Source of the DNA: an uncultured Bacilli bacterium | GTDB lineage: Bacteria > Bacillota_I > Bacilli_A > RF39 > UBA660 | Assembly: GCA_944358545.1 (NCBI GenBank) | Contig: CALVRJ010000013.1 | Coordinates: forward strand, 1-33,492 | Length of the DNA: 33,492 nt | Reading direction: 5' to 3' | In this document: one piece after another, positions 5,706-31,622 of the stretch | Numbering within the stretch: position 1 is the first letter of the stretch | Layout: each line of letters begins with the position of its first letter | Notes under the pieces: generated by a model | What the model was told of the DNA's origin: nothing | What the model saw: only the letters and a program-made list of their open reading frames with translations | The model's database searches: none | Translations under genes and position numbers: made by a program

Positions 5706-5731
5706 AAAAAATAAATCCCAAAGGATTTATT
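5706..5731 (-). terminator. Intrinsic terminator of the coupling-protein gene
   Basis: On the minus strand AATAAATCC and GGATTTATT form a 9-bp stem with a 4-nt loop, followed by a T-run. The upstream arm overlaps the TAA stop at 5727-5729. This marks the 3' end of the secretion locus. Confidence 0.88.
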
Positions 5732-8129
5732 CATCATCATCTGCAAAGAAATCATCAAAGAATTGATCATCTGTAACATAATTACTATCATTTTTAGACG
5801 GTTCAGCTTTAATATTATTTAAAGTATCATGCTTAACCTCAGCTTTATTTTCTTTAGAAGTATTCTTAATCTCCATCTTAGAAACTTCATTTCTTTTTTC
5901 ATTTTCTAAGCGAACTTCTTTATTGACATTACTTGTAATTTTAGCCGCAAAATCCATAACTTTTTTATTTTTAATTTCAGGCTTTTTAGTTTCGTTATCT
6001 TTTACATTATCAGATTTCTTTACATCTTTATCTTTTGAAACATCGCTTACATTATTTTTAGAAGAAATAACTTCCACCGGCTTAACTGAAATATTATCTT
6101 TTTTAACAGACTCAGTCCGTTCTTTAACTGCTCCTGGTTTAATAACCTCTTTTACTTCTTGAGCCGGTTTTATAGCTGGCATTTTAATTGGATCAATCTT
6201 TCCAACAGGAGTTCCCTCACTAGCTTTCTTTTGAGCCTCCGCTTGCGCAATTTTCTCATCCATGCTCTTTAAAATAGCACCAAAATCAAGCGATGACTTA
6301 GGAGGTGTAATTGGTTTTGACTTATTCGCATTATTTTCCTGTGTCATTCTACTAATCATTTGATTTATTTGCTCTTGATCATGTTCTTTTTTCTTTTCAT
6401 CGACAAAAATCTTTAAATCAAACACATGAACCTTTTGCTTCTCTCTCGTTGGATATTCAGCTTTTTCGTAAGTTTCACCCCAATCAATTTGGTAATCTAA
6501 CTTTAATTTAGTCCTAAATGGATTACACCTAGTTCTCAGCAAAATAATTTCGCCGACTTTTAATTTCTGTAAATCACTAATGGTAATTAAAGGCCTAGTC
6601 TCTTCAATCGCTTTACCATCTTTATCTTTCTTGTCAGTCTTAACTTTTACTTCCCCACACATCTTACTAATTTCTTCTAATGCTGCAAGTTCAGTACTAA
6701 TCAAATAAACTATATTTGTACAGTTACCTTTAATCGTATCGCCTTTTTCCTTACCATAAACTTCAGATAATTGAGCAAAGTTCTGAATAACAAAGAAAAA
6801 TCTCATCTTTCTACTACGAGCTGCTGAAACCATCGCATCGACATCTTTAAGTGGTGGCATATTCGCAAACTCATCCAGTAAGAAGTTTGTTCTATAAGGA
6901 AGTTTTCCTCCACATTTTTGAGCATAATCAACAAGTGTTTCATAACATTGTTTAAGGAAAATTGTTACCAAAGAATGATATGTTTTCTTTTCATCCTGAA
7001 TAACTATAAATACAGCTGTTTTCTTTCTACCAATATCTTCAAACTCAAAATCACTATGTGAAAGCATTTCAGATAAATTATCTCTTGAAGCAAAAAGCCT
7101 AATCTTTTGCTGGAAAACAGAAATAATACTTCCTCGAGTTTCAGAAGGTGCCGAAATAGTTGAAGACGCACTTACATAAGCCGAAGAAGCCGGATCTTTA
7201 GTAAGCTTAAAATATTCATTCGCATAAACAGAACGAGCTCCACACTTCTCTTCTCCCACTGTTGTAAATAAATTAATACTATTTAAATTAATTTCATCAG
7301 GCTGTGCATCTTCAAACAAACCTAAACAAATACCTGAAAAATAGTTTGCTGAAGTATTTTGCCAAAATGGATCGTTATTTTGTCCAGCTTCATCATACAA
7401 AATATTTGCCGCTAGGTCATCAGTAAGCTCGTTTGCCTTATCAATATTACCCTCTTTATAATATTTATAAGGTAAATGAAGTGGATTCCAACCACTACCT
7501 TGTTGTGGATTACGGAAATTAAGTAAAATTACATTATACCCTCTAGCTTTAAGCATATTTGCTGTTGTTTCATAAATTTCACCTTTAGGATCCGTAATAA
7601 TCATTGATTCATCGTGTTTAGCCAAAGAATGAACTAATGGGAAAATTGCAACCTGGGTTTTACCCGCACCAGTAGAACCGATAATAAGTGTATGAGCCTC
7701 ACTATTATCAACCCACATAAATTTCCCATCATTAATTAAAGGAAGACCCCCAGCTTCTGCTTTTTTAGCCTTTACATCGACTTTAACTAACTCTTTTTTT
7801 AGTTCACTATCTTTCATCCATCTAGAATAACCTTTAGACTCTTTTTTTACATCAGTTCCGAAACCGATACCTTTATCCCTGTCAAAAAACTTATCTTTAA
7901 CTGATACAATACAAGCAACTAAAGCAATAATATAACAAGGAATAGTTATTCCAATATAATCCGGACCTAAAGCTGGAAACGGATTCAAGCCATAAAATAA
8001 ATGATCTAAATCACCTTTTGCAAACTGTATAATATTAAGTACAGCTATACAAACAATATACAAAAGAATGACACAAAATCCTCCAAACATTGCCCAATCT
8101 TTAGGTTCTGCATTAAATTTTAATTTCAT
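5727..8129 (-). CDS. VirD4/TraG-type type IV coupling protein
   Basis: Type IV coupling proteins are inner-membrane ATPases that recruit substrates (DNA-protein complexes or proteins) and feed them to the channel. The 800-aa product has two N-terminal TM helices (about 13-34 and 56-77), Walker A GSTGAGKT (151-158) and Walker B FLLDEFANMPP (about 416-426), the family's signature. The nucleotide-binding fold ends near 590. A charged Lys/Glu/Pro-rich, probably disordered tail (about 590-780) and an acidic end DDQFFDDFFADDDE follow. I chose ATG at 8129 with AGGAGGT 6 nt upstream; an extension to 8150 lacks one. No relaxase is nearby, so the substrate may be protein or an unlinked DNA. Confidence 0.94.
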   Translation of the reverse strand: MKLKFNAEPKDWAMFGGFCVILLYIVCIAVLNIIQFAKGDLDHLFYGLNPFPALGPDYIGITIPCYIIALVACIVSVKDKFFDRDKGIGFGTDVKKESKGYSRWMKDSELKKELVKVDVKAKKAEAGGLPLINDGKFMWVDNSEAHTLIIGSTGAGKTQVAIFPLVHSLAKHDESMIITDPKGEIYETTANMLKARGYNVILLNFRNPQQGSGWNPLHLPYKYYKEGNIDKANELTDDLAANILYDEAGQNNDPFWQNTSANYFSGICLGLFEDAQPDEINLNSINLFTTVGEEKCGARSVYANEYFKLTKDPASSAYVSASSTISAPSETRGSIISVFQQKIRLFASRDNLSEMLSHSDFEFEDIGRKKTAVFIVIQDEKKTYHSLVTIFLKQCYETLVDYAQKCGGKLPYRTNFLLDEFANMPPLKDVDAMVSAARSRKMRFFFVIQNFAQLSEVYGKEKGDTIKGNCTNIVYLISTELAALEEISKMCGEVKVKTDKKDKDGKAIEETRPLITISDLQKLKVGEIILLRTRCNPFRTKLKLDYQIDWGETYEKAEYPTREKQKVHVFDLKIFVDEKKKEHDQEQINQMISRMTQENNANKSKPITPPKSSLDFGAILKSMDEKIAQAEAQKKASEGTPVGKIDPIKMPAIKPAQEVKEVIKPGAVKERTESVKKDNISVKPVEVISSKNNVSDVSKDKDVKKSDNVKDNETKKPEIKNKKVMDFAAKITSNVNKEVRLENEKRNEVSKMEIKNTSKENKAEVKHDTLNNIKAEPSKNDSNYVTDDQFFDDFFADDDE

Positions 8130-8168
8130 CTCTAGACCTCCTAAAAACAAAAGTTCAATAGTAACATT

Positions 8169-9707: not shown

Positions 9708-9742
9708 AAAAATTTCTAATAAAATATATTAGAAATTTTTTT
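9706..9742. terminator. Bidirectional terminator between convergent genes
   Basis: A 16-bp near-perfect AT stem (9706-9721 with 9727-9742, core AATTTCTAATA) with a 5-nt loop has A-run and T-run flanks. It ends both the plus-strand gene (stop at 9707) and the long minus-strand secretion operon (stop at 9742). Confidence 0.92.
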
Positions 9743-12216
9743 TACCATATAGAACCTAAGTTAGTCGCACTAGTAACTCTCTTACCGCCCCACTCACTAA
9801 ACCATCCATTGTTACCTGGATTACCATATTGATTATAGTAAGCTCTTGCAACCTCAAATTCTATAACATTTTGTCCATTATTATGACCCCATTCATTACA
9901 ACCTGGGTCGTTAGGATTTTTAATATCGGCAATAATACAAGGAATCTTTGTACCATCACTTAAATAGAAATCAACTTTATCACCAACTTGACCATAAGTT
10001 GTTGTACAAGCAATTAAATATCTTCCATCGTATGTTGCTATACCATTATCGTATTTTGCTCCACTTGGAAGCCAATAATTATAATATAAGTTACCTTGAT
10101 TTGAATTCTCTGCCCATTGCCAACTATTATCACTATTACTATAGAACGTAACCGTATAACCACCATTACCATATTCAGCTGGAATAGTAATTTCTCCAGA
10201 CGCTCCATCTTCCGGTAAACATAAATCAGCTGCGTTTGAACCACTTAATCTATATATATATTGATAATTATGTCTACCTTCACTATATGACGCAATACTA
10301 ATTTCATTACCTGAACTATCACCAGAACGTCCGTCCATATCATAATGAGCTGCAATTTCTTTTATTTCGCCATTTTCATTACTATAAATAGTAGTCGTAT
10401 GTCCACTAACACCAGGTCGCGGATCAACAACTATATCACCTGCCTGTAAACTATTCCTATCATATGGAATTTGTTCAAAACCAGCGGCTGTCAAAACAGA
10501 ACCCATATTAGTTGTATTAAATGGACCTTGAGAAGCATCTAAAATACCAGCATTCACAAGTGAATAAAATACAAATGATGAACAATCATAATTTGGACCA
10601 TTTCTATTAGAGATACTATATCCATGACTATTATCATCAGCAATAGCTTCCATCGCTTTCAAAAACTTACTTACAGAATTATTAGCCTCGGCTGTTCCCG
10701 CCGGACTAGTACTTGAATTACCAGTACTTCCAAAAGCAACATCGTTCGCACAGAACAAATTATATGAATAAAGCGAATTACCTTTCCAAGCGTTCTGAAG
10801 AGTAACTAATCCCTGCTGTCCATTAGGTGCTGAAGGGTCCATAACATAAACATTTCCATTTTCAACATGATCAAACGCCACCCAGTGACCTAATGATAAA
10901 TACAAAACAATAAATGGTTGATGATTACCATTACATGGCGTATTTATAGCTTGACTTAATACCCCAGCAGCATTACTAACATTAACCGGAATATCTTGGC
11001 CAACCATTACGAAATTAGGTGCAATTCCTTGCCAACTATTCCAATATAAAGCACCACCTGTAAAACTTGCATTTTGGACAAATACCCCAGGATTAAAATT
11101 AGTAACCGTAAGTTGTGTCCCTGACTTTGCAATTAAATAAGACATTGAAGTAGCCGTACAACCAATATTACAAACATTACTTACACCACCTAGTGATAAA
11201 TTACTCCAAGGAGCTCCACACTGTCTCCAATTCGTAATATCGCCTGTTCCAACCGAACCAGCAGTATAAACACATTCGTCCTCTTCCTCAGGGAATAATT
11301 GTCTATAAAATTTAGCAAATTCAATTATGTTGTCTGCCGCTTCCTTTTTTGCTCTATCCTTAGCCGCGCCTTCAGGCATATTTTTAATATCTTCAAATGT
11401 TCCTCCGATAAAACCATGCTGACAAATATCCATTGAATTGAACATTTTTACTACTGAATCTGCTGCATTTCCATCTGAATCACCAAAACCAAAAAAATCC
11501 ATAATCATATCAATTGGTTGAAAAATAAGATTTTTTATACTACCAATAGCTGAACCCACTGTTTCCGCTACACAAGCAACACCATTTACAACAAAATTAT
11601 TCGACCCAAATCCAGGATTTTGTAATGCTTCTTTATAACTATCCTCGTTATACTTGCCATCTACAGTCGAATTATACATAATAATTGCCGCTGCATCAAC
11701 TAAATCTATTTCTTCTTGATCTATACCATTATATCCATCACTACTAGTTGTCGATAATCCCTCAAAAAATTTTTTTACAGAATCTGTAAAACTGTCTTCA
11801 TCATAATCAGCATCATATTGTGCATCCATTACCTCATAATAATCACCTTGAAATAAAACTGTTGATGCCAAAACAACTTTGTCAATTCTGCCATTACTAT
11901 TTTCAGCAATAATATCTATTTTAGAAACAAACTGAGCTTCTTTCTTTTTTTCAAGATCTTCATTTGAACACAATATACAAGCTTGATTAAACGTATTTTC
12001 AATTCTATCGACATTTTCTTGTACTAAACCCAAAAAATAGGAAACAACACCCAAAACAACCATTATTAAAATAAAGAAAAAAGATGCCCCCGCAATTATT
12101 CCAAAAAGCATAAGTTTTGCCTTAGCCTTAAAAAAGCCGCCAACTAAATTTGTTGGATCTAATCCGGCTTTTGAAGCTTTCTTACTTAAAAAACTTAAAC
12201 CTAATTTAGGAAGCAT
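9742..12216 (-). CDS. VirB1-like cell-wall hydrolase: TM + C39-type peptidase + NlpC/P60 + beta-barrel-like domain
   Basis: This 824-aa protein probably opens peptidoglycan for the secretion channel. One TM helix (about 35-64) follows a basic N-terminus. Residues 70-320 are unassigned. A papain-like C39-type domain (about 325-490) shows Q332, C353 (NIGCTATS), H444 (LGHWVAF) and D460. An NlpC/P60 domain (about 510-660) shows C545 (YDCSSF), H606 (SGHTTTIY) and H624 (AAHYD). The C-terminus (about 675-790: GRYLIACTTTYGQVGD, CIIADIK, VIEFEV) resembles the double-psi-barrel-like tail found in related conjugation hydrolases. Gram-positive T4SS hydrolases usually pair a lytic transglycosylase with NlpC/P60; the C39 domain here is unusual. 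Start: GGTGGTGA 4 nt upstream of ATG. Confidence 0.88.
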   Translation of the reverse strand: MLPKLGLSFLSKKASKAGLDPTNLVGGFFKAKAKLMLFGIIAGASFFFILIMVVLGVVSYFLGLVQENVDRIENTFNQACILCSNEDLEKKKEAQFVSKIDIIAENSNGRIDKVVLASTVLFQGDYYEVMDAQYDADYDEDSFTDSVKKFFEGLSTTSSDGYNGIDQEEIDLVDAAAIIMYNSTVDGKYNEDSYKEALQNPGFGSNNFVVNGVACVAETVGSAIGSIKNLIFQPIDMIMDFFGFGDSDGNAADSVVKMFNSMDICQHGFIGGTFEDIKNMPEGAAKDRAKKEAADNIIEFAKFYRQLFPEEEDECVYTAGSVGTGDITNWRQCGAPWSNLSLGGVSNVCNIGCTATSMSYLIAKSGTQLTVTNFNPGVFVQNASFTGGALYWNSWQGIAPNFVMVGQDIPVNVSNAAGVLSQAINTPCNGNHQPFIVLYLSLGHWVAFDHVENGNVYVMDPSAPNGQQGLVTLQNAWKGNSLYSYNLFCANDVAFGSTGNSSTSPAGTAEANNSVSKFLKAMEAIADDNSHGYSISNRNGPNYDCSSFVFYSLVNAGILDASQGPFNTTNMGSVLTAAGFEQIPYDRNSLQAGDIVVDPRPGVSGHTTTIYSNENGEIKEIAAHYDMDGRSGDSSGNEISIASYSEGRHNYQYIYRLSGSNAADLCLPEDGASGEITIPAEYGNGGYTVTFYSNSDNSWQWAENSNQGNLYYNYWLPSGAKYDNGIATYDGRYLIACTTTYGQVGDKVDFYLSDGTKIPCIIADIKNPNDPGCNEWGHNNGQNVIEFEVARAYYNQYGNPGNNGWFSEWGGKRVTSATNLGSIW

Positions 12217-12242: not shown

Positions 12243-14027
12243 TTATAGTCCGCCACCAGAACCAAATGAATCTAATTCTTGAGCTGTAACTACAATATTT
12301 ATTCTCATTCTTTTACTACCACATACAAACAAAGCTTCTCCTTGATTGTAACCTTTTATATTTTCTTTTTCATTATCATTTAAATCGATTAATTTAGCTA
12401 AATCCTCAACCGCCTGTTTTTTTAGTCCCATAACTAAGTAATAAGAAGCATTATCAAATATCGCTTTACCTTGTGTAATGACAGCCGGATCACTAAAATC
12501 AGTTGGTTGCTGAGTAATTATAATTGTTCCTGTATTATACTTACGAGCACGTCTTTGAATCTGTGCTAAAAAGTCCGCACCTAATACATTATTCCCGCCT
12601 AAAAGTACATGAGCCTCATCTACCATAAGTACTGTATTTTGATTAACATCCAAAGTTAAACTCCATGCATATTTTAAAACGTTAAAGAATAATGCATTTC
12701 GAATATTAGAATCTGTATTCATTAATTCTCTAATATTAAATACAATAAAATCACTTTTCGGGGTAATTGTCGTTTTCCCATCAAAATAGAAACGAAGCTC
12801 ACCGATTAACGGACGCATTTTAAGCTCCAAATGTTCTAGTATATCTCTCTCTCTACTTTGTTCAGGCATTGAAGTAATTTTTCCTCTTACCGTTGCATAT
12901 ACATCTCTTAAAGTAGGATAATCAGCTGAAGTAAAATGTGTAAAATCGCTATTAAAATCTATTCCAAAACGTTTATAGGTCTCTTGTACTGTTTCACTAA
13001 AAACATTTACAACATCATCTGTAATAGATGGATCATAATATTTTATAAAAGCTTTAATTGTTTGTAAAGTTCTCGTTAAAACAGCATAGCCAAGACCTTG
13101 CCTGATTTCATCCTCATCGGCATCAATTACAACTTCCAGTGGATTAATCATACCAAATTCTCCACCTTTACCTAAGTCGATAAAATCGCCACCATATAAT
13201 CTCGTCATATCCTCAAGTTCCCCTTCAGGGTCAATAACAACTATTTTATAACCATTCCTTATATGATTTCTAAGCATAAGTTTAGCAGCTGTAGATTTAC
13301 CAGAACCAGAAGTACCAAGAATAATCATATTTGCATTATTTCGGTTATGTTCTTTTTGAACTTGATATAAAAATTGATTAAACAAAACTACCCCACCAGA
13401 GAAATCAACACCTAATAAAGTTGATAACCCAGGATCTTTAATACTATCAAATACAAATGGATACATCGCCGCAATTGTCGGTGAAGGAATAGGTGTCCCT
13501 ATTCTATCTTCGACATCTTGTTTCGGAAAAATTGGAAGCATTGATTTTAAAACTTTTTCTTGTTCAAATCTTAATGAAACAGCTCGCATATTCATTGCCT
13601 CTAAATAACCTCTTAATTGTAACTTTTTAGCTGTAAGTTCTTCATCAGAGTCTGCTGTTATCATTAAATGTAATTGAAAATCAAATATTTTTGACTGTGA
13701 AGCCGCAAGTTGTTTAATAAAGTCTTCCAAAGATTCATAATCTTGCCTAAGTCTTTCCTGAATAGTAACATCATGTTCTTCTTGATAACGAACTTTTAAA
13801 TCCGCAATTTCCTTATTAACCATCTTCGTAATAACCCCAAAAGGAAGTGGAATATGTTTAATAACCATTTTAATACCTGACATACTCGTTAAATTAGCTA
13901 AAAATCCAGGCGCAATAACTTTAGGATAAGATATAACCGTCATTATTGTTGAATACTTATCACTAACAACAAAACTACTCGGTCTAAATTCAAGACCTTT
14001 CGGAGCGATTTGTGTTTTTATATCCAT
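12243..14027 (-). CDS. VirB4-type conjugation ATPase, C-terminal cistron (central + ATPase domains)
   Basis: VirB4 ATPases power T4SS assembly and substrate transfer at the inner membrane. The 594-aa product begins at the usual VirB4 central domain (EFRPSSFVVSDKYSTIM...YP) and continues through Walker A GTSGSGKS (238-245), IVVIDPEGE, Walker B VLMVDE (466-471) and the ITQQPTDF motif (504-511). It closely follows the CD1110-type architecture of Clostridioides conjugative elements. The N-terminal domain is encoded by the preceding gene, and the start codon overlaps that gene's stop (TAATG), so translation is coupled. Together the two polypeptides make about 775 aa, the usual length of one VirB4. 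Confidence 0.93.
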   Translation of the reverse strand: MDIKTQIAPKGLEFRPSSFVVSDKYSTIMTVISYPKVIAPGFLANLTSMSGIKMVIKHIPLPFGVITKMVNKEIADLKVRYQEEHDVTIQERLRQDYESLEDFIKQLAASQSKIFDFQLHLMITADSDEELTAKKLQLRGYLEAMNMRAVSLRFEQEKVLKSMLPIFPKQDVEDRIGTPIPSPTIAAMYPFVFDSIKDPGLSTLLGVDFSGGVVLFNQFLYQVQKEHNRNNANMIILGTSGSGKSTAAKLMLRNHIRNGYKIVVIDPEGELEDMTRLYGGDFIDLGKGGEFGMINPLEVVIDADEDEIRQGLGYAVLTRTLQTIKAFIKYYDPSITDDVVNVFSETVQETYKRFGIDFNSDFTHFTSADYPTLRDVYATVRGKITSMPEQSRERDILEHLELKMRPLIGELRFYFDGKTTITPKSDFIVFNIRELMNTDSNIRNALFFNVLKYAWSLTLDVNQNTVLMVDEAHVLLGGNNVLGADFLAQIQRRARKYNTGTIIITQQPTDFSDPAVITQGKAIFDNASYYLVMGLKKQAVEDLAKLIDLNDNEKENIKGYNQGEALFVCGSKRMRINIVVTAQELDSFGSGGGL

Positions 14028-14572
14028 TAGCTCATCACCGTCCCAAATGTTGTGGTTGTCCCACCATTTAAGAAGTTATCCAAAATAATTCGTAAATCAT
14101 CATTGGAAGTTTGAGTTGCCACGAGTTGAGCATTAGCAAAATTCTGAATTAAACTTCTTATCTTTTTTTGAATTCTATCCATATCTTTATCCTTGAAAAG
14201 TAAATAAAATTCGGTATCAACAACGTTATTTGTTGTAAACATATTTGCCTTATTAATATCTTCCATAATCAATTTTCTTCTAACAGGATTTATTTCCGAA
14301 TTATATAATAGCTGAAGTCTTGATAAATAAGCCGTAATATCAACTGGTCTATCAGCTGCGATAATCCAAAATTCATAATCAATCATGTTATAAACATTAC
14401 GCAAATTATTAATTATTAAATTTTGTTCACTAGGATCAAGAATAAAAATATTTCTCGGAGATATTTTAACTCCTGTAACCTTATCATTATTATCACAAAT
14501 GATAACGCCATTTGTAATTGATTTTATAGGCACAAAATCATTTGTGTATTTGCTTCGTGTCTCCGTACTCAT
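14027..14572 (-). CDS. VirB4 N-terminal domain protein (split VirB4)
   Basis: The 181-aa product has the N-terminal signature of Gram-positive VirB4 proteins: DFVPIKSITNGVIIC, KISPRNIFILDPSEQ and a later FYLLFKD segment. It ends just where the central domain starts in full-length homologues and lacks any P-loop. It lies between PrgI and the ATPase cistron, exactly in the VirB4 N-terminal place. ATG at 14572 is preferred; a GTG at 14581 is also possible. The start overlaps the end of the PrgI gene by about 35 bp. The ORF ends in TAA inside TAATG, so a separate, coupled polypeptide is likely, although ribosomal frameshifting could also join the two. Confidence 0.85.
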   Translation of the reverse strand: MSTETRSKYTNDFVPIKSITNGVIICDNNDKVTGVKISPRNIFILDPSEQNLIINNLRNVYNMIDYEFWIIAADRPVDITAYLSRLQLLYNSEINPVRRKLIMEDINKANMFTTNNVVDTEFYLLFKDKDMDRIQKKIRSLIQNFANAQLVATQTSNDDLRIILDNFLNGGTTTTFGTVMS

Positions 14573-14864
14573 CTTTCGCACACCAACCTTTCCAAATAAA
14601 TCTTTGTCTTGTTGTATAAAAAGTATAAAGCTCTTTTAATATTACCAAAGTATTATGATAATTAGGAATTGGCAATACTAAGAAACCTGAAATAACTCCT
14701 GGAGCTAAATCAATTGCTGCCATAAGTAAACTAGAAGGGGACAAAATCATTAGAAGTAATATTGTTATTGTAAGTCCCACTCCAAAAAGTATTAAATCAG
14801 CAGTTGTAAAAACTCCAAAGATTAACATTGATTTTTTTGTGTTTGCCGGTATTAAATAATTCAT
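14538..14864 (-). CDS. PrgI-family protein (VirB3-like T4SS membrane component)
   Basis: The 108-aa protein carries the PrgI-family pattern: YLIPANTKKS at the start, two adjacent TM helices (about 15-60), the linker LPIPNYHN, and a C-terminal TRQRFIWKGWC. PrgI/VirB3 proteins are small inner-membrane partners of VirB4 and are nearly always encoded next to it, as here. Start support is strong: AGGAGG lies 8 nt upstream of ATG. The 3' end overlaps the VirB4 N-terminal cistron. Confidence 0.92.
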   Translation of the reverse strand: MNYLIPANTKKSMLIFGVFTTADLILFGVGLTITILLLMILSPSSLLMAAIDLAPGVISGFLVLPIPNYHNTLVILKELYTFYTTRQRFIWKGWCAKDEYGDTKQIHK

Positions 14865-17329: not shown

Positions 17330-18274
17330 TTATTCGCCAACCCCACAAAGTGGATCATCTTTATTAACACCAGCTATATTAGCTACACCGTTAATAGTTT
17401 GTATTGCAAAAGTAACAATTACTGGTGCAAGCAATAATACAATTAAACATATTATTCTTGTTTTTAAGCCTTTAAGAAAATTTCTAAAGCCTTCTTCAGT
17501 ACCAACAATTGCTTTTACTCCATCCAGTACTGAAAGTAACACAACCAAAATAATACCAATTATACTTACCCATGTAAATATAGTATTAAGTAAACTTTGC
17601 ATGCTGGAATCTATTAAACTACAATCACCCTGCTCATTTCCGTAATTAGCACCAGACTTATTATTCCAATAATCTTTAATAGAACCCACGTCAGTCAAAT
17701 TATTTTCAGGTGTTTCATCAGCACTTGTATCACCAGGAGTGGTAGTATTAGTAGTTCCCTCCTGAAAAATTTTATCATCATCAATTGTAATAATTGCACC
17801 TTCGTCATTGCTCTCATTTTTTTCACTAAGTGACATTGTAGTTATATTTTTTGCACCAGCATCTTCAGCTGCCTTTTGTGTAAGATATACAGAATCCATG
17901 TTAAAGCCTGTAGAACCCGCTAAATATAAATAATTAGGACATTTCCACTGTTTATCTTTATAAAATTTATTTTTAATTTTATTTGCTCCAAGCAATCTCA
18001 TATTAGTTGGAGCTGCTCCATTTGCAAAAACATTTGAAGTATCACTATAAATTAAAAAATTACTTACAAACTTGCCATTCTCATTCATATAAACTTTAGT
18101 TTCCAAACGGTAGGTTGATGGGTTTTCAGTTACAGCTGTTTGAAATTGATTATATGTACATATTGCAAAGCCATTTTTTGTCTTTATATCGGCAGCAAAA
18201 ACAGAAGAAGAAAACACAAAACATAAACCAAGTACCGTCAAAATTCCAAGCGTTACCTTATAAATGTTATTCAT
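17330..18274 (-). CDS. Extended VirB2-like protein (copy 2)
   Basis: The 314-aa product has a signal peptide (MNNIYKVTL...VFAAD, about 1-28), a secreted N-terminal domain (30-150), an acidic/Thr-rich linker, and a C-terminal pilin-like module. That module has two TM helices (TIFTWVSIIGIILVVLLSV and IICLIVLLLAPVIVTFAI) joined by a basic loop, the layout of VirB2/TrbC pilins. A Cys before helix 1 (GDCSLID) and after helix 2 (PLCGVGE) would lie outside and may pair. The C-terminal ~120 residues are nearly identical to the adjacent copy 1. ATG at 18274 has GGGGTGA upstream; an in-frame ATG at 18328 lies within the -10 region and is not credible. Confidence 0.82.
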   Translation of the reverse strand: MNNIYKVTLGILTVLGLCFVFSSSVFAADIKTKNGFAICTYNQFQTAVTENPSTYRLETKVYMNENGKFVSNFLIYSDTSNVFANGAAPTNMRLLGANKIKNKFYKDKQWKCPNYLYLAGSTGFNMDSVYLTQKAAEDAGAKNITTMSLSEKNESNDEGAIITIDDDKIFQEGTTNTTTPGDTSADETPENNLTDVGSIKDYWNNKSGANYGNEQGDCSLIDSSMQSLLNTIFTWVSIIGIILVVLLSVLDGVKAIVGTEEGFRNFLKGLKTRIICLIVLLLAPVIVTFAIQTINGVANIAGVNKDDPLCGVGE

Positions 18275-18326
18275 TGGTAAAATCACCCCAATTAATCTAA
18301 AAAAGACAAAAAACCATACTATATAC

Positions 18327-18335
18327 ATTATAACA
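18327..18335 (-). promoter_or_regulatory. Extended -10 promoter before VirB2-like copy 2
   Basis: TGTTATAAT on the minus strand (TATAAT at 18332-18327) lies in the 92-bp gap between the two extended VirB2-like genes, about 53 bp upstream of the start. The -35 is weak (TATTAT at 17 bp). Confidence 0.5.
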
Positions 18336-18366
18336 TAAAAAACTATTTAATAATATATAAAATTAA

Positions 18367-19329
18367 TTATTCGCCAACCCCGCAAAGCGGATCGTTACTA
18401 TTAACACCAGCTATATTGGCAACCCCATTAATAGTTTGTACTGCAAACGTAACAATTGTCGGGGCAAGTAATAATACGATTAAACATATTATCCTTGTTT
18501 TTAAACCTTTAACAAAGTCCCTTAATCCATCATCTGTACCGACAATAGCTTTTACTCCATCTAATACTGAAAGTACTACAACCAAAATAATTCCGATTAT
18601 ACTTATCCACGTAAATATAGTATTAAGTAAATCTTGCATGCTTGAATCTATTAAACTACAATCTCCTTGTTCATTTCCATAATTAGCCCCTGACTTATTA
18701 TTCCAATAATCTTTTATTGACTGCGTATCGGCTAAGGTACTAGTCGCACTATTGTCTTTTTTAGTTTCATCTTTCTCCTCTTCTTTAGTAGTTGAACCAC
18801 CTGTAACACTAGAACCTGTCTGACTACCCTTATCATTAAAAACCGCATTCTTCTTATTACTTATATTATTTGAACTTTTATCTAATATCAAATTATAACA
18901 GGCAATTCCAGGAGTACAGTTAGTTCCAAAAACTAAATTACCACCTTTACTAAAATTCTTCATATCTAAAAAAGTAAAAGTTACATTATTTTCCGCACAA
19001 GAAAACTTTTTATTTTTATAGAAAAAAGACATCATTAAATCATTATCTCTATTATAAGAATCATAATTAGGCAATGGAACATTCGTTGAACTATTATCAC
19101 TTGCAACCAAATCAACATCCGCTCCAGTCTTCACTTTGCCATCTTTACTATAATAAACCCAAGTTCTCGCAACTAAAGTTTTACCTTGAAAGCCAGAAAC
19201 AGTATAACGACAAAACGCATATCCATTTTTAGTTTCAGTTCGTTTAGTAGGCAAAGCAGCATCTACACTCCTTATTCCAAAAAATAAAAACATACTAAAA
19301 CACAGTAACAAACATATAATTTTCTTCAT
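18367..19329 (-). CDS. Extended VirB2-like protein (copy 1)
   Basis: The 320-aa product is a paralog of the next gene. It has a signal peptide (MKKIICLLLCFSMFLFFG...VDA, about 1-24), a secreted domain with four Cys (FCRY, FSCAE, NCTPGIACY), a Lys/Glu/Thr linker (about 185-210) and the two-helix pilin-like module (about 240-310) ending DPLCGVGE. Known VirB2 pilins are short, so an exposed ~180-residue domain ahead of the pilin module is unusual and might decorate the channel or bind a partner. I chose ATG at 19329, 9 nt after AGGTG; the GTG at 19341 lies inside that site. Confidence 0.82.
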   Translation of the reverse strand: MKKIICLLLCFSMFLFFGIRSVDAALPTKRTETKNGYAFCRYTVSGFQGKTLVARTWVYYSKDGKVKTGADVDLVASDNSSTNVPLPNYDSYNRDNDLMMSFFYKNKKFSCAENNVTFTFLDMKNFSKGGNLVFGTNCTPGIACYNLILDKSSNNISNKKNAVFNDKGSQTGSSVTGGSTTKEEEKDETKKDNSATSTLADTQSIKDYWNNKSGANYGNEQGDCSLIDSSMQDLLNTIFTWISIIGIILVVVLSVLDGVKAIVGTDDGLRDFVKGLKTRIICLIVLLLAPTIVTFAVQTINGVANIAGVNSNDPLCGVGE

Positions 19330-19390
19330 ATAAGGTCTCACCTATCCTTATTTAATTATATCATGCATTTCAAAAATAATATATAACAAA

Positions 19391-22474: not shown

Positions 22475-22708
22475 TTACTTGTTATTTGCACTTCGTGTAC
22501 AAGTTGAATAACCGCTTGGATCGTATTGTTTATTACCACCACTTGTGCATTTACCACTCTTCCAAACACCTCCGGCATCTGTACAACAAGCTCTATTAGC
22601 AGTATTACTCATCAAACTGTTAATAAGTGGAGTAACAACAGCAACGATAACACCGATTAAGATAATTGCAACAACTGTTAAGTTTGCTTCACCTGCAGCT
22701 TCTTTCAT
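22475..22708 (-). CDS. Flp-like major pilin candidate
   Basis: The 77-aa product has an N-terminal hydrophobic helix (NLTVVAIILIGVIVAVVTPLI, about 9-29) and a short C-terminal part with four Cys (ACC, KCT, TCT). Size, single helix and place beside TadC and the TadE/F-like genes fit a Flp-type pilin. The N-terminus MKEAAGEANL lacks a long basic prepilin leader; if cleaved at AAG/EANL the leader would be six residues. It has its own extended -10 promoter and a downstream attenuator, which fits a highly expressed structural subunit. GGTGGTGA is the ribosome binding site. Confidence 0.8.
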   Translation of the reverse strand: MKEAAGEANLTVVAIILIGVIVAVVTPLINSLMSNTANRACCTDAGGVWKSGKCTSGGNKQYDPSGYSTCTRSANNK

Positions 22709-24513: not shown

Positions 24514-25986
24514 TTATTCAAATAAATTTTCAGTTCCTGTATTAGTCTGTTTAGGCCCTTGTTGTTGGCTAGTTACAGCCGAATCAAAAGCATTCGAAAA
24601 TATACTACCTGAACTATCAGGTTTTACATAGCCTTGATTTGTATTTACATTACTTTGAACTGTTCCATTCAAAGTTGTGTTATTAAAAGTATTTTGATTA
24701 ACAACCTGATTAGAATTATTTAATGGGCTAACCGTTTGTGTATTTTGTATAGTTTGAGTATTAACACTATTTTGAACTGGTTTTACTTGTGCAGCTACAT
24801 TTGAATTAGAAACTTGCGAATTAAGTAAATTAATAGTGTTTTCCTTAACTTCTGGAATTTCACCTTGTTTAGTATTTGAACCATCTTTAACAAAATTATT
24901 GTTATCAGTACCTTCTTCCTCCGGTTCTCCAGCCAAATTCTGAAGTTCTTTTGGTAAAAATACACCTTGAATTTCCAAATAATCAATTAAATATGGACTT
25001 GGATTATTTCTAATAACCTTGCCATCTGCTCCTTTTCGATAAATAACATTATGCTTAGCCTCATTAGTATCCTCAGTTACATAAAATTCAGTTACCTCAG
25101 CAATCTCTCTTTTAAATTGATGGGTTGCCTTATCAGTATAACCTCTTACATATATACCAATTTGAATATATCTACAAATGGATTTTATAAACTGATCCAT
25201 ATCCTGGCTAGTCTCAAGTAAACTATACATACGACTTGGAATAGAAGAAGCCTTATCCGCATGGATAGTAGACAAAATATAGTGACCTGATGAAATTGAG
25301 TTACGAACAGCCATAACTGCTTCAGCACTACGAACCTCGGAAAGTAAAATCCATTTTGGATTCTGTCTCATACATGCTTCCAATATATCAGTATATGTTG
25401 CAATATTATTAGTTTTCATCGATACAATATCGCGTGTTGGAAAAATCTTATCAAGGTGAAGCTCCAAAGTATCTTCGATTGTAATAATTTTTTCATTTTC
25501 AGCAATCTTAGAAGCTAAATACTTAATAAGCTCTGTTTTACCTGAACCAGTTTCACCACAAGCAATAATATTACAGTGACCTAACACACATTGTTCAAGA
25601 AAATCAATAATATCAAGTTCAACATATTTTTCAGCAACAATTTTATCTTTTTGTAATCGTATTTTTGCCGGTGTTTTACGAACAACACAAGCAATGCCAT
25701 TCTGAGCAATTGAATCATGAACAAATGCTAAACGAAGTTCAGCACTTTCAGCATCCAAGAATGGATGAGCCATATTAAAGGTTTTACCCATAACATTTGA
25801 ACACTGAAAGGCTAATTTCTCCATAAAAGTATTATTAACTTCCTTATTCTCAATTCTAAATATACCTTTAGATAAAGTCTTTAACCATACCTGACCACCA
25901 TTATCATAAGAAATATCAGTAATATCATCATCTTCCAAATATGGCTTCAGAGGACCGAAGTCAATTTGGTCGAACATATTATTCAT
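24514..25986 (-). CDS. tadA: TadA/CpaF-type secretion ATPase with long Asn/Gln-rich tail
   Basis: This hexameric GspE/VirB11-superfamily ATPase powers pilus assembly. The 490-aa product has an N-terminal domain (1-130), Walker A GETGSGKT (144-151), an Asp box IITIEDTLEL (167-176), a Walker B-type WILLSEVRSAEA (212-223) and a His box GHYILSTIHAD (234-244). All key residues are present. After the core, residues ~350-490 form an Asn/Gln/Thr-rich tail that ordinary CpaF proteins lack. As a VirB11 relative it could also serve the neighbouring T4SS module, which has no other VirB11. GAGGAG lies 9 nt before ATG. Confidence 0.92.
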   Translation of the reverse strand: MNNMFDQIDFGPLKPYLEDDDITDISYDNGGQVWLKTLSKGIFRIENKEVNNTFMEKLAFQCSNVMGKTFNMAHPFLDAESAELRLAFVHDSIAQNGIACVVRKTPAKIRLQKDKIVAEKYVELDIIDFLEQCVLGHCNIIACGETGSGKTELIKYLASKIAENEKIITIEDTLELHLDKIFPTRDIVSMKTNNIATYTDILEACMRQNPKWILLSEVRSAEAVMAVRNSISSGHYILSTIHADKASSIPSRMYSLLETSQDMDQFIKSICRYIQIGIYVRGYTDKATHQFKREIAEVTEFYVTEDTNEAKHNVIYRKGADGKVIRNNPSPYLIDYLEIQGVFLPKELQNLAGEPEEEGTDNNNFVKDGSNTKQGEIPEVKENTINLLNSQVSNSNVAAQVKPVQNSVNTQTIQNTQTVSPLNNSNQVVNQNTFNNTTLNGTVQSNVNTNQGYVKPDSSGSIFSNAFDSAVTSQQQGPKQTNTGTENLFE

Positions 25987-25992
25987 AAAATA

Positions 25993-27042
25993 TTACTCCT
26001 CATCATTTGCCATTGGTACACTAGTAGTGGCAGTATGAACTTCACCAGTCGCAATTTCTGTAACTGAAGCAGTTAAATTACCATCATTCTTAAATGTAAC
26101 TGTAACTTTTTTTCTATTTACAATAATAGGATCTTCATCATCCACAGTATAAGAACAAGTATAATCAGTTCCACATCCCTCAGGGAATTTAATAGTCATC
26201 TTCATATTATTATTTTTGTTAGATGAGAATGTAGGTACTAAATCACTTGCATCGTTTGAACCATCATCGATAGGTATATCAACAGAGTGTGCATTAATAT
26301 AGTCAACAAGTTGTTGTGTAGAAATTTCAGTAGCTCCTTGATTTGGTGCTTGACCACCATGAGGTACTGGATAAAGTTCAACACCTAAATCATCCATATA
26401 AGATGCTTTCTTAAGTAAACTATACATATTTCCAGGTAAACCAAATATCAACATTGAAGGACTTCTCTCTTCAGATGTATTTTCAAATACAGCCTTACCA
26501 GATGAATCCTTAACAGCTAAAACCTCAATATTTTCAATAAGTTTACCAACCATAATTGGCTCTTCCTCACCATTACCGACTTTCATAAAGATGTCAATTT
26601 TATTTCCAGGGAAAATTGAATTACCATAAGTAGTTTCCATATCAACAGGGAAATTATAAACTACTTCTCCAGCTTTTACTTTGGTAAATGCTGCATCAGG
26701 AAGTTCACTTTCGCTAATTACTGTATCAGTATAAAACATACTTCCCTCAGGAATAACTGTATTGATATTAGAATATTTTCCAACAATCTGACTTCGATCT
26801 TGAATTACATTGTCAGAAACTGAAATATTTGGCATATCAATTTCCTGAACCATATCATCGGTAATTTCAGTTCTAGGTTGAATTGTTTCAGTTGCAACCG
26901 GTATAGTTACCGGTTCAACCGCTTGATTAATTTGCGTACTATAACCAACATAAAGTAATACTAAAATAATAATTACTCCAATAATGGTTACCGTATTTTT
27001 GTTTTTAAAAAATCTTTTAAATGACGCCGTTACGCTTTCCAT
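25993..27042 (-). CDS. cpaB: CpaB/RcpC-like pilus assembly protein (SAF domain)
   Basis: The 349-aa product has a short cytoplasmic part, one TM helix (17-35) and an extracytoplasmic SAF-like domain (about 44-108: VTIPVATETIQPRTEITDDMV...VIPEGSMFY), then a CpaB-type domain (about 115-225 with VDMETTYGNSIFPGNKIDIFM). The C-terminal domain (about 270-349) is rich in beta-strand-like sequence and has a likely Cys pair (GCGTDYTCSY). In diderms CpaB works with the secretin; here, with no secretin gene, it probably acts in the cell wall space. It directly precedes tadA. Confidence 0.85.
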   Translation of the reverse strand: MESVTASFKRFFKNKNTVTIIGVIIILVLLYVGYSTQINQAVEPVTIPVATETIQPRTEITDDMVQEIDMPNISVSDNVIQDRSQIVGKYSNINTVIPEGSMFYTDTVISESELPDAAFTKVKAGEVVYNFPVDMETTYGNSIFPGNKIDIFMKVGNGEEEPIMVGKLIENIEVLAVKDSSGKAVFENTSEERSPSMLIFGLPGNMYSLLKKASYMDDLGVELYPVPHGGQAPNQGATEISTQQLVDYINAHSVDIPIDDGSNDASDLVPTFSSNKNNNMKMTIKFPEGCGTDYTCSYTVDDEDPIIVNRKKVTVTFKNDGNLTASVTEIATGEVHTATTSVPMANDEE

Positions 27043-27070: not shown

Positions 27071-27478
27071 TTAATAAGGGGTCTCCAAAATTGCATCAAT
27101 TCTATTAGATAAATTAAAGTTAAATGTATCACCACTCATACCATTAGAACCAAGTACACCACTTGAAACTCTAATACTTACCTTTGGTGGTTTTTCATTT
27201 ATATCGTAAAAACTAATCTTATATTCTCTAGACCTGCTAGCACTTTCTGCATATCTTCTAATAAAGTTCTCAGCAAACTTTTCACGATTAATTCTTACCT
27301 CACCTGTTGCTCTATATGATGCATAATCAAACGAATCCCACATAGCCGCTTCGGTAACTTCCTTTAAAAGCTGTGAATTATGCTCATCAACATTTGTCAA
27401 ATTTTGAAACAAGAATATAAAGATAATTCCAGCCACACCGAGCATTACAACAAACATGCCCCAAAATGACTCTTTCAT
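27071..27478 (-). CDS. TadE-like single-helix protein
   Basis: The 135-aa product starts MKESFWGMFVVML, with one TM helix (about 7-26), then a polar domain including NIDEHN-like and YRATGEVRINREKFAENFIRRYAES. It has no cysteine, unlike the other exported proteins of the locus. The place between the giant Cys-rich gene and cpaB, and the N-terminal form shared with the other pilin-like proteins, suggest a TadE-like minor subunit. It starts 3 bp after the upstream gene's stop. Confidence 0.7.
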   Translation of the reverse strand: MKESFWGMFVVMLGVAGIIFIFLFQNLTNVDEHNSQLLKEVTEAAMWDSFDYASYRATGEVRINREKFAENFIRRYAESASRSREYKISFYDINEKPPKVSIRVSSGVLGSNGMSGDTFNFNLSNRIDAILETPY

Positions 27479-27481
27479 CTT

Positions 27482-30400
27482 CTAATCACTACCTTTCTTG
27501 CTTTTATCACAGCTATAGAAATTACTTTTATTACTATTAGCACATAAACCAGTAACATCATATTCCAAATTATCTAAAAATTCACTTACACAAGCTTTAC
27601 CGTTATCTTTACATTTTAAATCCCAGTCATCATAAGAAGTAGAATCGTTATATTCTCTAATATCACCTATCTTTTTAGTATCAAGTACTATCTCATATAA
27701 AGGCTCACCTGAGTAAACAACACTACGTTTATTAATTATGTAATTAGAAGACACATTGTTATCATAACTACAATCTAATCTACCAGCTGAAATGCTATAA
27801 GAACACCAATTAGCACCAGTAACTCTTGCCTTAGAATCACTACCATCCTGACCTGGGAATGGGAATGTTAAATCAATTGGTCTATAAATAACATTTATAC
27901 CGCCAGTACCTGGACAAGTACCATCAGGCATCGGTGCACATTCACCACTTGGACAACATCCATAAGGACATTCACTAGTTGGACACTCTATTGTTGTCGT
28001 ACCAGGACAAATTCTATCATATTCCTCTTTAGAAATTTCTTTGCCATCGAAATCATAATACTTTCCATCTTTTACATAACAAGTACCACCGTCAGGACAA
28101 ATTCTATAAAACTCTTCTTTAGTAATTTGGTTACCACTAAAATCATAGTATTTTCCATTTTCGATGCGACACGTATATGGTGTATTTTTAGGTTTACATT
28201 GACCAGTTGATGAATTATATACTTGACCTACTGGACAACATGAATTAGTACTTGGATTCCAAGAACGTCCTAACCTATTAGCATCTGCTTCCGTTTCACA
28301 TCCATCAGCTGTTCCATCACATTCTCCAGTCTCCGGATTATAATTTGTTCCTACTGGACAACATTTATTAGTTGTTGGGTTCCAATCTCGGCCTAATCTA
28401 TTAGCATCCTCTTCTGTCTTACAAGAAGTAAGATTATTTTCACAAACCCCTGTCGTTGGATTATAAGTAGTTCCTACTGGACAACATGCTTTTGTTCTTG
28501 GATTCCAATCACGACCTAATCTATTGGCATCTGCTTCTGTCTTACAATCATCAGTAGTCGTTGGTGGAGTCCCTCCACTTGAACATTTTCCAGTTGATGA
28601 ATTATAAGTAGTTCCCACTGGACAACAACTGTTTGTCTTTGGATTCCAATCACGACCTAATCTATTGGCATCTGCTTCTGTTTTACATTCACTATCAGTA
28701 TCATCATCACATTTTCCAGTTTTAGAATTATAACTTGTACCTACTGGACAACATGACTTTGTCTTTGGATTCCAATCACGACCAAGTCTACTTGCATCCG
28801 CAGCCGTTTCACACTTTATTGTCTCCTCATCACATTTTCCGGTTGATGAATTATAAGTAGTTCCCACTGGACAACAACTATTTGTCTTTGGATTCCAATC
28901 ACGACCTAATCTATTGGCATCAGCCTCTGTCTTACAATCACCATCTTCATCAGGTGGAATAACAGATGGATTACAAATTCTATTATATTCAGATTTAGAA
29001 ATTTCTAATCCATTATAATAATATTTACCATTTCTTACCTCACAAGGACTCGGACTATTTATAAGTACCATACAAGAATAACCTGAATCAGTCGCACCAT
29101 CTATTTTATTTCTATTAATACAACTGTTAGAACCTGTACCAATTTTGTTTTCAGTTCTCTGGCTTACACAGTTTTCAAATGCCTCACCAGAACTACCAAA
29201 CATTTTTGCACACGCGCTGTTATTTAAAATATCCCAGTCACGTGACTCCATTCTTCCTTTTCTATATTTCTTATAAACATTATCCACTTTATTCCCAGAA
29301 GACTGTAAATAATCGTTATTTTGTGTATAAGCTTTAGAAATTCTAGAACCACTAGGTAATGTATAAGAAAATTGAATATCGCCTGCTGGTGCATTATCTT
29401 CAGCATTAGCCGTAAATGTAACAGGTAAATTAGGTAACCCTATATTCTCATACTCTTGAAGTTCACTAGCATCATTAGAAGGTTTATGTTTCATTGATAA
29501 ACCATCTTGTTTTCTAACATATTGATAATAATTCTGAGGTAATGTATAAGAATATGTAACAGACATAGTAAGCATGTCACCATTAATATTAGCCGAATAA
29601 CTATCAGGCTCATCATATCTTCTCATTTCTTCAGCCGAATTCATATTATATGGACTGCCACTATTCGTCTCATTATATCTAAACATTACTGTTCCTGTAT
29701 CACGCTTAAACTCACTCTCAGCATTTCTAGCATAAGCGTTCAAATTCCCGCCTTTACATTGCCTTATCTTAGTAACACGAACAGGTTTAAAGTTTTGGAT
29801 ACCAGTAGTTCTAAGATTTTCAAGTTCTCGTGCCGTTGGATTTAGCAAGAAAAATCTACCAGGAGTAACTTTAATAGTATTATTTACATTCGGGAAAAAC
29901 ACTTTGTACTCTTCTCTACAAAAAGTACCACCGCCTCTATCAAAGTATGTCTTAACATTACCATCCATTGATGAACTATTCATAATAGCTTCCCAGTCTG
30001 TCGTATCTTGAATAATATAGGCTTTGTTTTCACTGTCGTTCGAATTACAGTTAACACACGCCGCATCAACCGAATAATCATAAGGCTTAACAAACAATTT
30101 AGGATTAAAACCGATAATATTATAACCTTCACCACGATTTCTATCGGCAAATGCTAACCCAAGCTCAGACCGACCATTTGTTGTATACCAGCCACCTCTT
30201 CTACCAGCTGCGTTATGTATTCCCATATCATCTTGTGTCGTAAACAAATCGCCTTGCCAAGAACTACCAAATAGACCTAAATCCGGATGCTCTGCTGCCC
30301 ATGACTTACGTGGATACAAAATAGAACACCAAGTATTTACATCCCATGAAGAATAACCAAAACAAGTAAGTTTTTGAACTAAAATTCTATATCCATAAGA

Positions 30401-30901
30401 ATTAAAATTACCAGGATCAGAACCTTGTTCTTTCAAGTTATTTATATTTTGATTAAATTCACTTAATAATTGATTTGCATAAGTCTTTTCACTTACCGTT
30501 TGAACATTATCAAGACCACCACGAGCCTGAATATCTCTTGCCAAGTTCAAAAGGCTACCATTTTTACTTCCATACCTACAACCATTTGCTTCAGCTGTAC
30601 TATTTGCTTTCCTATCGATATCGGAAATTATATAACGGCCCTGTGCCCCCGTATTTACAACGACACACTTCCCAACATCGTAGTAATCACCATATTGTGG
30701 TTTATATACAAGTTGAAATAAATAAACTCCTGAATCAAAACCACTACCACCATCAGTCATATGATTAATATCAGTTCCACCACCAGTAGCACCGCCACTG
30801 CCAGTATAACCACCGGTCTGCCAAGCTTCTACTTGAACCGAACTAAAACCGATAATCGTGACAAATAAAAGCAAAAATAACTTTTGAAATGTCCTCTTCA
30901 T
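27482..30901 (-). CDS. Giant secreted Cys-rich repeat protein, putative pilus-associated adhesin
   Basis: The 1139-aa product has a signal peptide (1-26, ending VEA). Residues ~27-600 hold a large unassigned domain with scattered Cys, starting with a Gly/Thr-rich segment. Then come a C...NGKYYYNG...RIC unit, six tandem ~41-residue repeats (C-T-E-A-D-A-N-R-L-G-R-D-W-N-P ... CCPVGT-x-Y-N ... TG-x-C), two more NGKYYDF-x-G units and a short CPYGCCPSGEC segment. No sortase LPxTG motif or C-terminal TM helix is seen, so attachment is probably through the pilus or other proteins. Being first among the Tad genes and by far the largest exported protein, it is the best candidate for the tip or surface binding subunit. 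Start: AAGGAGG before ATG. Confidence 0.85.
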   Translation of the reverse strand: MKRTFQKLFLLLFVTIIGFSSVQVEAWQTGGYTGSGGATGGGTDINHMTDGGSGFDSGVYLFQLVYKPQYGDYYDVGKCVVVNTGAQGRYIISDIDRKANSTAEANGCRYGSKNGSLLNLARDIQARGGLDNVQTVSEKTYANQLLSEFNQNINNLKEQGSDPGNFNSYGYRILVQKLTCFGYSSWDVNTWCSILYPRKSWAAEHPDLGLFGSSWQGDLFTTQDDMGIHNAAGRRGGWYTTNGRSELGLAFADRNRGEGYNIIGFNPKLFVKPYDYSVDAACVNCNSNDSENKAYIIQDTTDWEAIMNSSSMDGNVKTYFDRGGGTFCREEYKVFFPNVNNTIKVTPGRFFLLNPTARELENLRTTGIQNFKPVRVTKIRQCKGGNLNAYARNAESEFKRDTGTVMFRYNETNSGSPYNMNSAEEMRRYDEPDSYSANINGDMLTMSVTYSYTLPQNYYQYVRKQDGLSMKHKPSNDASELQEYENIGLPNLPVTFTANAEDNAPAGDIQFSYTLPSGSRISKAYTQNNDYLQSSGNKVDNVYKKYRKGRMESRDWDILNNSACAKMFGSSGEAFENCVSQRTENKIGTGSNSCINRNKIDGATDSGYSCMVLINSPSPCEVRNGKYYYNGLEISKSEYNRICNPSVIPPDEDGDCKTEADANRLGRDWNPKTNSCCPVGTTYNSSTGKCDEETIKCETAADASRLGRDWNPKTKSCCPVGTSYNSKTGKCDDDTDSECKTEADANRLGRDWNPKTNSCCPVGTTYNSSTGKCSSGGTPPTTTDDCKTEADANRLGRDWNPRTKACCPVGTTYNPTTGVCENNLTSCKTEEDANRLGRDWNPTTNKCCPVGTNYNPETGECDGTADGCETEADANRLGRSWNPSTNSCCPVGQVYNSSTGQCKPKNTPYTCRIENGKYYDFSGNQITKEEFYRICPDGGTCYVKDGKYYDFDGKEISKEEYDRICPGTTTIECPTSECPYGCCPSGECAPMPDGTCPGTGGINVIYRPIDLTFPFPGQDGSDSKARVTGANWCSYSISAGRLDCSYDNNVSSNYIINKRSVVYSGEPLYEIVLDTKKIGDIREYNDSTSYDDWDLKCKDNGKACVSEFLDNLEYDVTGLCANSNKSNFYSCDKSKKGSD
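28196..28936 (-). repeat. Six tandem ~123-bp coding repeats (Cys-rich module)
   Basis: Six copies of a ~41-codon unit, each with four Cys (one at the start, a CC pair, and one at the end), differ mainly in the linkers (EETIK, DDTDSE, SSGGTPPTTTDD, ENNLTS, DGTADG). Copies 1 and 3 are nearly identical in DNA, which suggests recent expansion or gene conversion, so copy number may vary between strains. Confidence 0.93.
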
Positions 30902-30902
30902 T

Positions 30903-31553
30903 TTAATGCCTCCTTCTTGGTAATCTCTTTATAACTACCAAAATAATAATTAAAATTACTATACCTAACCCAACTGATAAAATTAAAACATTATCTCTAA
31001 AAAAGTTAAGTATTGTACTCCAAACACTATTGTCTTGAACACTCTTTTGATTAGCTAAAGCTATATCCTGCTTATATTTAACAAACTCATTTTCAAATTG
31101 TGAATTTGTTAGCGAAACATTAAGCCATCTCTGGCAATATTTAAAATTAGGATTTTCTTTGCATTCATCATAAGTGCTGTAATAGTTATAAAATGGCGTA
31201 CTTATATATTTAGTAACTAACTTCTTTCCAGAACAATTAGGATCACTAGAATATATATCAAAAGTCAAAGTTGTTCCAGCTCCAACATTTACGTTTTGCT
31301 CGGTTGCACCGCTAAGCATTACCGTTCCCAAAGTTCCTGGATTATAATAAGTTACATAAATATCATTTGTTAAATTAGTAAGTGTTACTGTAAAATTAGC
31401 ATTACTATCATAATTATAACTAAGTTTGACATTATTTGCGATTTTTGAAAGCTCTGCAAGCCTCTGATAATCACAATCCGCAGAAACTTTAGTTATAAAA
31501 GGAGTCATACAAATAAACACAAATATTATATAAAATATTTTCTTACCCTTCAT
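30903..31553 (-). CDS. Exported protein with C-terminal membrane anchor, unknown
   Basis: The 216-aa product has a signal peptide (about 1-25, ending VSA), an extracytoplasmic domain of Ig-like, beta-rich character (VKLSYNYDSNANFTVTLTN...) with four Cys (ADCDY, PNCSG, DECKE, KYCQR), a predicted helical stretch, and a C-terminal TM helix (about 186-208) followed by KRLPRRRH. It is type I in topology and could display its domain at the machine. ATG at 31553 follows GGAGGATACGGTA; an upstream in-frame ATG at 31586 lies before the -10 box and is rejected. Family not recognised. Confidence 0.78.
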   Translation of the reverse strand: MKGKKIFYIIFVFICMTPFITKVSADCDYQRLAELSKIANNVKLSYNYDSNANFTVTLTNLTNDIYVTYYNPGTLGTVMLSGATEQNVNVGAGTTLTFDIYSSDPNCSGKKLVTKYISTPFYNYYSTYDECKENPNFKYCQRWLNVSLTNSQFENEFVKYKQDIALANQKSVQDNSVWSTILNFFRDNVLILSVGLGIVILIIILVVIKRLPRRRH

Positions 31554-31572
31554 TACCGTATCCTCCTTTATT

Positions 31573-31581
31573 ATTATAACA
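31573..31581 (-). promoter_or_regulatory. Extended -10 promoter before the C-anchored protein
   Basis: TGTTATAAT on the minus strand (TATAAT at 31578-31573) lies about 20 bp upstream of the ATG at 31553, just ahead of the GGAGG. The -35 is poor (A-run). Confidence 0.5.
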
Positions 31582-31622
31582 TACATTTAGCATGTTTTTT
31601 TATTTTTATGTAAAATATTTGT

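Follow-up and report, generated by a model that had tools for sequence, protein, structure and literature searches.

A likely adhesin with exchangeable heads encoded in a Tad-like pilus/T4SS locus of an uncultured UBA660 bacterium

The window, as the whole stretch of DNA analyzed here is called, comprises 33,492 nucleotides from an uncultured bacterium of the RF39/UBA660 group. A single open reading frame at 27482-30901 on the minus strand, with an ATG start, encodes an apparently secreted, Cys-rich mosaic surface protein of 1139 aa and is present as a single copy in the 1.38-Mb source genome. The initial annotation called the protein giant, a term that stands only in a relative sense, most full-length homologues being ~830-1310 aa long. 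Read by eye, the N-terminus carries an apparent cleavable Sec-type signal peptide (~aa 1-24, 30830-30901; MKRTFQKLFLLLFVTIIGFSSVQVEA followed by W), which falls in a hydrophobic helix spanning residues 2-29 in the model, and then a Gly-rich segment. An exchangeable head (aa 25-272, 30086-30829), delimited by mosaic identities, AU tests and a confident model, precedes a conserved beta-rich core that starts at YDYSVDAACVNC (aa 273-615, 29057-30085) and is marked by invariant Cys and Trp columns as well as by the model. Beyond a region of repeats lie a Cys cluster common to many congeners (CPYGCCPSGECAPMPDGTCPG, 27908-27970) and a conserved C-terminal domain (aa 1003-1139, 27485-27895) proposed to serve in docking; all of these features are on the minus strand. 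The protein has 54 Cys residues, 36 of them within aa 616-1003. Pfam and NCBIfam searches of the 1139-aa protein returned nothing above cut-off, and its C-terminus lacks an LPXTG-like motif with membrane helix and basic tail, ending in a conserved soluble domain. A promoter and terminator scan gave no signal above chance.

The flanking genes belong to a pilus or secretion locus. At 30903-31586 (minus strand) lies the gene for a small Cys-containing partner protein with a C-terminal membrane helix and a basic tail, which adjoins the adhesin gene in pilus loci of both the genus and the family. Directly downstream of the adhesin, the gene at 27071-27478 (minus strand) is identified by synteny and by PF17424 (E 1e-53) as encoding a DUF5411 protein, with a pseudopilin-like N-terminal helix. 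On the same strand are a CpaB-like gene (25993-27042; TIGR03177, 4e-10, under its cut-off), a CpaF/VirB11-type ATPase (24514-25986; T2SSE, 1.3e-27) that matches VirB11 (1e-19) and CpaF (5e-19) in the PDB equally well, and a 77-aa candidate major pilin (22475-22708) with an AAG/EA prepilin-like site and a Cys-containing tail. That tail (CCTDAGGVWKSGKC) faintly echoes the adhesin's CC repeat unit, described below. Two membrane platform proteins have no family match in the PDB and one of them, scanned as an alignment, none above cut-off in Pfam; the names TadB, TadC and TadZ are labels given by gene order, not database matches. A prepilin peptidase is encoded elsewhere in the genome, and there are seven matches to sortases. 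Across 5727-27478 the Tad-like genes form one run with T4SS genes, the run including VirD4 (5727-8150), an Amidase_5 peptidoglycan hydrolase (9742-12216), VirB4 (12243-14027) and T4SS pilins (17330-19341). The VirB4-like ATPase is possibly split, naturally or by a frameshift, as a 184-aa ORF (14027-14581) adjoins the 594-aa ORF at 12243-14027. With CpaB under its cut-off, the ATPase equally close to VirB11 and CpaF and the platform proteins unmatched, the assignment to the Tad type is partial. Since T4SS parts are also encoded here, the machine may be a T4SS and not a retractile pilus.

Gene order in the genus runs from the protein at 31623 through the partner at 30903, the adhesin, DUF5411, CpaB and the ATPase to two platform proteins, minor pilins and T4SS pilins, and is constant where contigs reach. 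The adhesin keeps its place with the partner, DUF5411, CpaB and ATPase genes in all nine genus loci that reach those genes. Of 10 loci from the wider family, 8 share this arrangement, one with a repeated partner-adhesin pair, and L108 and L114 hold adhesin copies away from the pilus locus. Across the genus, the products from DUF5411 to the TadZ-like gene are 53-97% identical to those of the window, the adhesins 34-56% (best segments) and the partners 37-51%.

Both kinds of repeat described in the initial annotation are real. Six Cys-rich (CC) units occupy aa 656-902, each with the pattern C-x20-CC-x13-C and, counted from its first Cys through its last, exactly 35 aa long without indels, and they are separated by linkers of 6-12 residues. 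On the minus strand they map to 28832-28936 (unit 1), 28709-28813 (unit 2), 28583-28687 (unit 3), 28442-28546 (unit 4), 28319-28423 (unit 5) and 28196-28300 (unit 6), with start-to-start spacings of 123, 123, 141, 126 and 123 nt; TRF detected repeat arrays with scores of 353 and 466. The three NGKYY units, at aa 620-643 (28973-29044), aa 911-935 (28097-28171) and aa 941-965 (28007-28081) on the same strand, thus flank the CC array. Near-identical DNA, which had been taken to indicate recent expansion, was found only in the non-adjacent units 1 and 3, which share 95% of their nucleotides and the same protein sequence (five synonymous and no nonsynonymous codon changes). Since all other pairs are 73-85% identical, the array as a whole is not very recent.

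No match to the CC unit above cut-off was found in Pfam or NCBIfam, and the unit is, as proposed, an undescribed one. Among 392 genomes of the phylum, in a sample with no other congener, a CC-unit profile matched that of the window alone, and the unit has been found only in the window's genus. A phage origin was considered and dropped, viral contigs encoding no relative; PHROG 34616 was matched at 8.5e-10 when stretches were summed, but none of them passed by itself. CC units are 69% identical within a protein versus 58% between proteins. Copy number ranges from 0 to 6 across species of the genus, with none in 12 of the 29 proteins examined, some of which are incomplete. In light of this variation, the unit fits a spacer that grows and shrinks rather than a core function. 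Nor can the CC repeat be the defining part of the protein, as the check proposed in the initial annotation revealed: many close homologues have one copy or none, the two nearest relatives having one unit each. The family is defined instead by the conserved C-terminal domain and the core.

The NGKYY unit, unlike the CC unit, is common across the wider bacterial family. In L080-L083, proteins of that family, the module C..NGKYYD.DG.xVxxxEYxxxC likewise forms what appears to be an extended stalk: long tandem arrays of it make up most of each protein, preceded by an N-terminal domain and followed by a tail that is LPXTG-like and includes a membrane helix (NPPTG or NPQTG, e.g. in L080, L082 and L083), whereas the conserved C-terminal domain is absent. 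The occurrence of NGKYY arrays in such wall-anchored-looking relatives supports a stalk role for the repeats.

The C-terminal domain (last ~135 residues) is the most conserved region, with a median pairwise identity of 46%. In the members examined it stands at or near the C-terminus, with no sorting signal seen after it. In Pfam no family reaches cut-off for this domain, the PDB gave no match to it, and its structural model is poor. A search of 296 genomes from the class detected the domain in 29, every one of them in the window's own GTDB family (f1); homologues of the protein were found in 37 of 43 sampled congeners. With a profile, 147 out of 288 genomes in the order gave matches, some of them to NGKYY modules alone. 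One relative is Candidatus Coprosoma intestinipullorum. In another (L090:148-2460, the same gene as that of L067) a proline/glutamate-rich segment is accompanied by a SpaA-like domain (PF17802), whose E of 1e-4 falls narrowly short of the cut-off.

The head has a history of its own. That of the window protein (aa 24-270) is 52, 50 and 48% identical to those of L007, L010 and L009, respectively, whereas the cores of these three are only 30-35% identical to the window's (31% for L007). Conversely, the core, stalk and C-terminus are 73, 75 and 75% identical to those of L031, the head of which is only 25% identical. Identity switches at ~aa 260-280, the start of the core. AU tests, with groups picked after the identities had been seen, rejected the placement of the window with L031 and L032 on the head (p 4e-8), and with L007, L009, L010 and L015 on the core plus C-terminus (p 1e-64). 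As the head tree is long-branched, with weak internal support, reliance is placed on the identities and AU tests and not on the tree's detailed shape. L032 and L039 have a common head (78% identical) joined to bodies that belong to different clades. Within the genus, one body class bears at least six classes of head. Together these comparisons show the head of one lineage on the body of another, with heads having been replaced between species. L111:1-10647 contains three adhesin genes in tandem, separated by partner genes and located upstream of DUF5411; such an array is a possible reservoir for head switching inside one genome.

Structural models give little guide to the ancestry of the head. 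The window head is modeled with confidence (pLDDT 82.5, pTM 0.85), as is most of the core, with mostly high pLDDT across aa 260-610. A PDB fold search with the head model yielded no relative (best Z 2.7) and listed no thioester-domain (TED) entry, a result that does not of itself exclude a TED. Weak Ig-like matches of the whole-protein model to the core (best Z 5.2) were not usable, and hardly any relatives turned up in a search with the L022 head. Thioester adhesin domains are defined by three motifs (PMC4450167, PMC6194298), here taken as [YFL]C-hydrophobic-polar, TQxx-hydrophobic-W and hydrophobic-Q-polar. Motifs resembling these are found, in order, at the head position of five family members (L087, L096, L097, L099 and L100), which thus have putative thioester-type heads: a Cys (in LCLN, LCID, LCLD or SCID), a [TAS]QxxxW helix and a Gln in QRF[LI] or QRVL. 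The TED pattern used, which 4 of 10,800 shuffled N-termini match, caught L087 and L096 from an earlier Cys. The head of the window protein contains KCVVV and VQKLT but lacks TQxxxW, and so does not carry the motif set. Its reading as a degenerate thioester domain, with Cys79 near a strand, three helices and a Gln176 strand, found no support in the fold search and was rejected.

Among known systems the closest in plan is PilY1 of type IVa pili, a soluble non-pilin tip protein with a type I signal, a variable, poorly conserved N-terminal region and a well-conserved C-terminal domain, which is encoded with pilus genes and is thought to be located at the tip with its variable end outermost (PMC7541494). 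The window protein likewise has a type I signal (by eye), a variable N-terminus, a conserved C-terminus and an operon with pilus genes. It differs in having no Pfam match to the PilY1 beta-propeller or vWA domain, nor, at E<=1 in a sequence comparison, to the PilY1 C-terminal domain; in addition, it belongs to a Gram-positive-type cell, has a disulfide stalk and exchanges its heads as whole domains. Among Tad-like systems there is precedent for pilus tips that can be exchanged (PMC12075869). KilLMN of Myxococcus (PMC12075869) and CpaL of Caulobacter (PMC12607857) are large, variable tip proteins associated with Tad-like pili, interchangeable and with predicted disulfide bonds. However, these tip proteins have a pilin-like N-terminal helix, and CpaL a vWA domain as well, whereas the window protein has a Sec signal and no vWA match; the pilin-like helix and prepilin leader expected of TadG, CpaL or KilN were not seen in it by eye. 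The TED adhesins SfbI, Cpa, BaTIE and TIEpLS20 (PMC4450167, PMC6194298, PMC8092201) share an N-terminal head on a repetitive stalk, and there are the similar motifs in the five relatives named above; TIEpLS20 offers a precedent from a conjugation locus, that of pLS20 (PMC8092201). Unlike these adhesins, the window protein has a head without the motifs, a disulfide-rich stalk in place of isopeptide or ester domains, and a conserved C-terminal domain where they have LPXTG.

The protein is likely an adhesin. The initial proposal, an adhesin whose repeat is undescribed, finds support in the lack of a family match, the genus-only CC unit, the synteny with a pilus/secretion locus and the exchangeable heads. 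We favor, with a probability of about 0.5, a secreted adhesin displayed by the pilus or secretion apparatus of its own locus, with a docking end, a stalk and an exchangeable head. Export would be by Sec. The C-terminal domain of ~135 residues would then dock the protein either to a minor pilin/pseudopilin complex (DUF5411 and neighbors) or to the membrane-anchored partner encoded at 30903-31586, a step suggested by the domain's conservation, the synteny and the absence of any other anchor. The disulfide-rich stalk of CC and NGKYY units would project the protein outward, its length changing by gain or loss of units; length does vary between species. Finally, the N-terminal head would bind a target surface, and its replacement by interspecies recombination would alter specificity. 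A pilus-tip position is inferred from this architecture. The best reading of the plan is thus PilY1-like but non-homologous, that of an exchangeable-head adhesin of a Tad-like pilus/T4SS apparatus.

A rather doubtful alternative places the protein not on a pilus tip but on the mating surface of a conjugation-type T4SS, held there by its membrane-anchored partner and gripping recipient cells in the way of the thioester adhesin of pLS20. The presence of VirD4, VirB4 and T4SS pilins in the same gene run is consistent with this, as is the partner, with its C-terminal membrane helix and with a gene that lies next to that of the adhesin and was apparently duplicated with it in L111; moreover, the TED adhesin of pLS20 also lacks a sorting signal and does not need sortase (PMC8092201). 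However, no relaxase was recognized among the window ORFs scanned, the locus, placed beside smpB and rnr by a reading of the sequence, is chromosomal and is conserved throughout the genus, and its closest conserved neighbors are Tad-like genes.

It is unlikely that the protein is instead a structural or cell-wall component, for example a spacer or scaffold round the secretion channel, with a diversity that stems from evasion of phages or immunity and not from the binding of ligands. Fast divergence and head replacement would also be expected under selection by phages for which pili or surface proteins serve as targets, and no binding activity is known for the protein. Yet a pure scaffold would not need TED motifs at the head position, as seen in some members; in known proteins such motifs mediate covalent binding (PMC4450167). 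Very improbable is the idea that the CC unit is a chitin- or glycan-binding module of the peritrophin type (CBM_14), so that the stalk itself binds glycans. CBM_14, or peritrophin-A, has six Cys over ~50 residues. It is the sole Pfam match (E 0.0027, over 25 residues), and the CC-unit profile weakly matches (E 0.025) a PDB chain in which a CxxGTxxNxxTxxC motif occurs. Nevertheless, the Pfam match scores 18.2 bits against a gathering score of 22.1 and covers only half of the model, the four Cys of the CC unit are set in 35 residues as C-x20-CC-x13-C, and many orthologues have no CC unit. With a score below cut-off and the wrong Cys pattern, CBM_14 identity was rejected.

If the protein is an adhesin displayed by its own apparatus, it belongs to an adhesin family likely of a previously undescribed kind. 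Tentatively, the family may represent pilus-borne adhesins of a new class, belonging to gut bacteria of the Gram-positive type, with a C-terminal docking domain and a partner that link the protein to a Tad/T4SS-like apparatus, interchangeable heads, of which some would be thioester-type and react covalently, and an adjustable disulfide stalk; were this so, the swap of one domain would give a species a new binding specificity. The RF39/UBA660 bacteria are uncultured, genome-reduced gut organisms suspected to live off partners or hosts (PMC13155120), and no account of how they attach was found in the literature. A family of adhesins linked to pili, in which the exchange of heads can be measured, is a concrete candidate for host or partner recognition in these organisms, and suggests that modular tip exchange extends beyond the Gram-negative systems in which it has so far been described.
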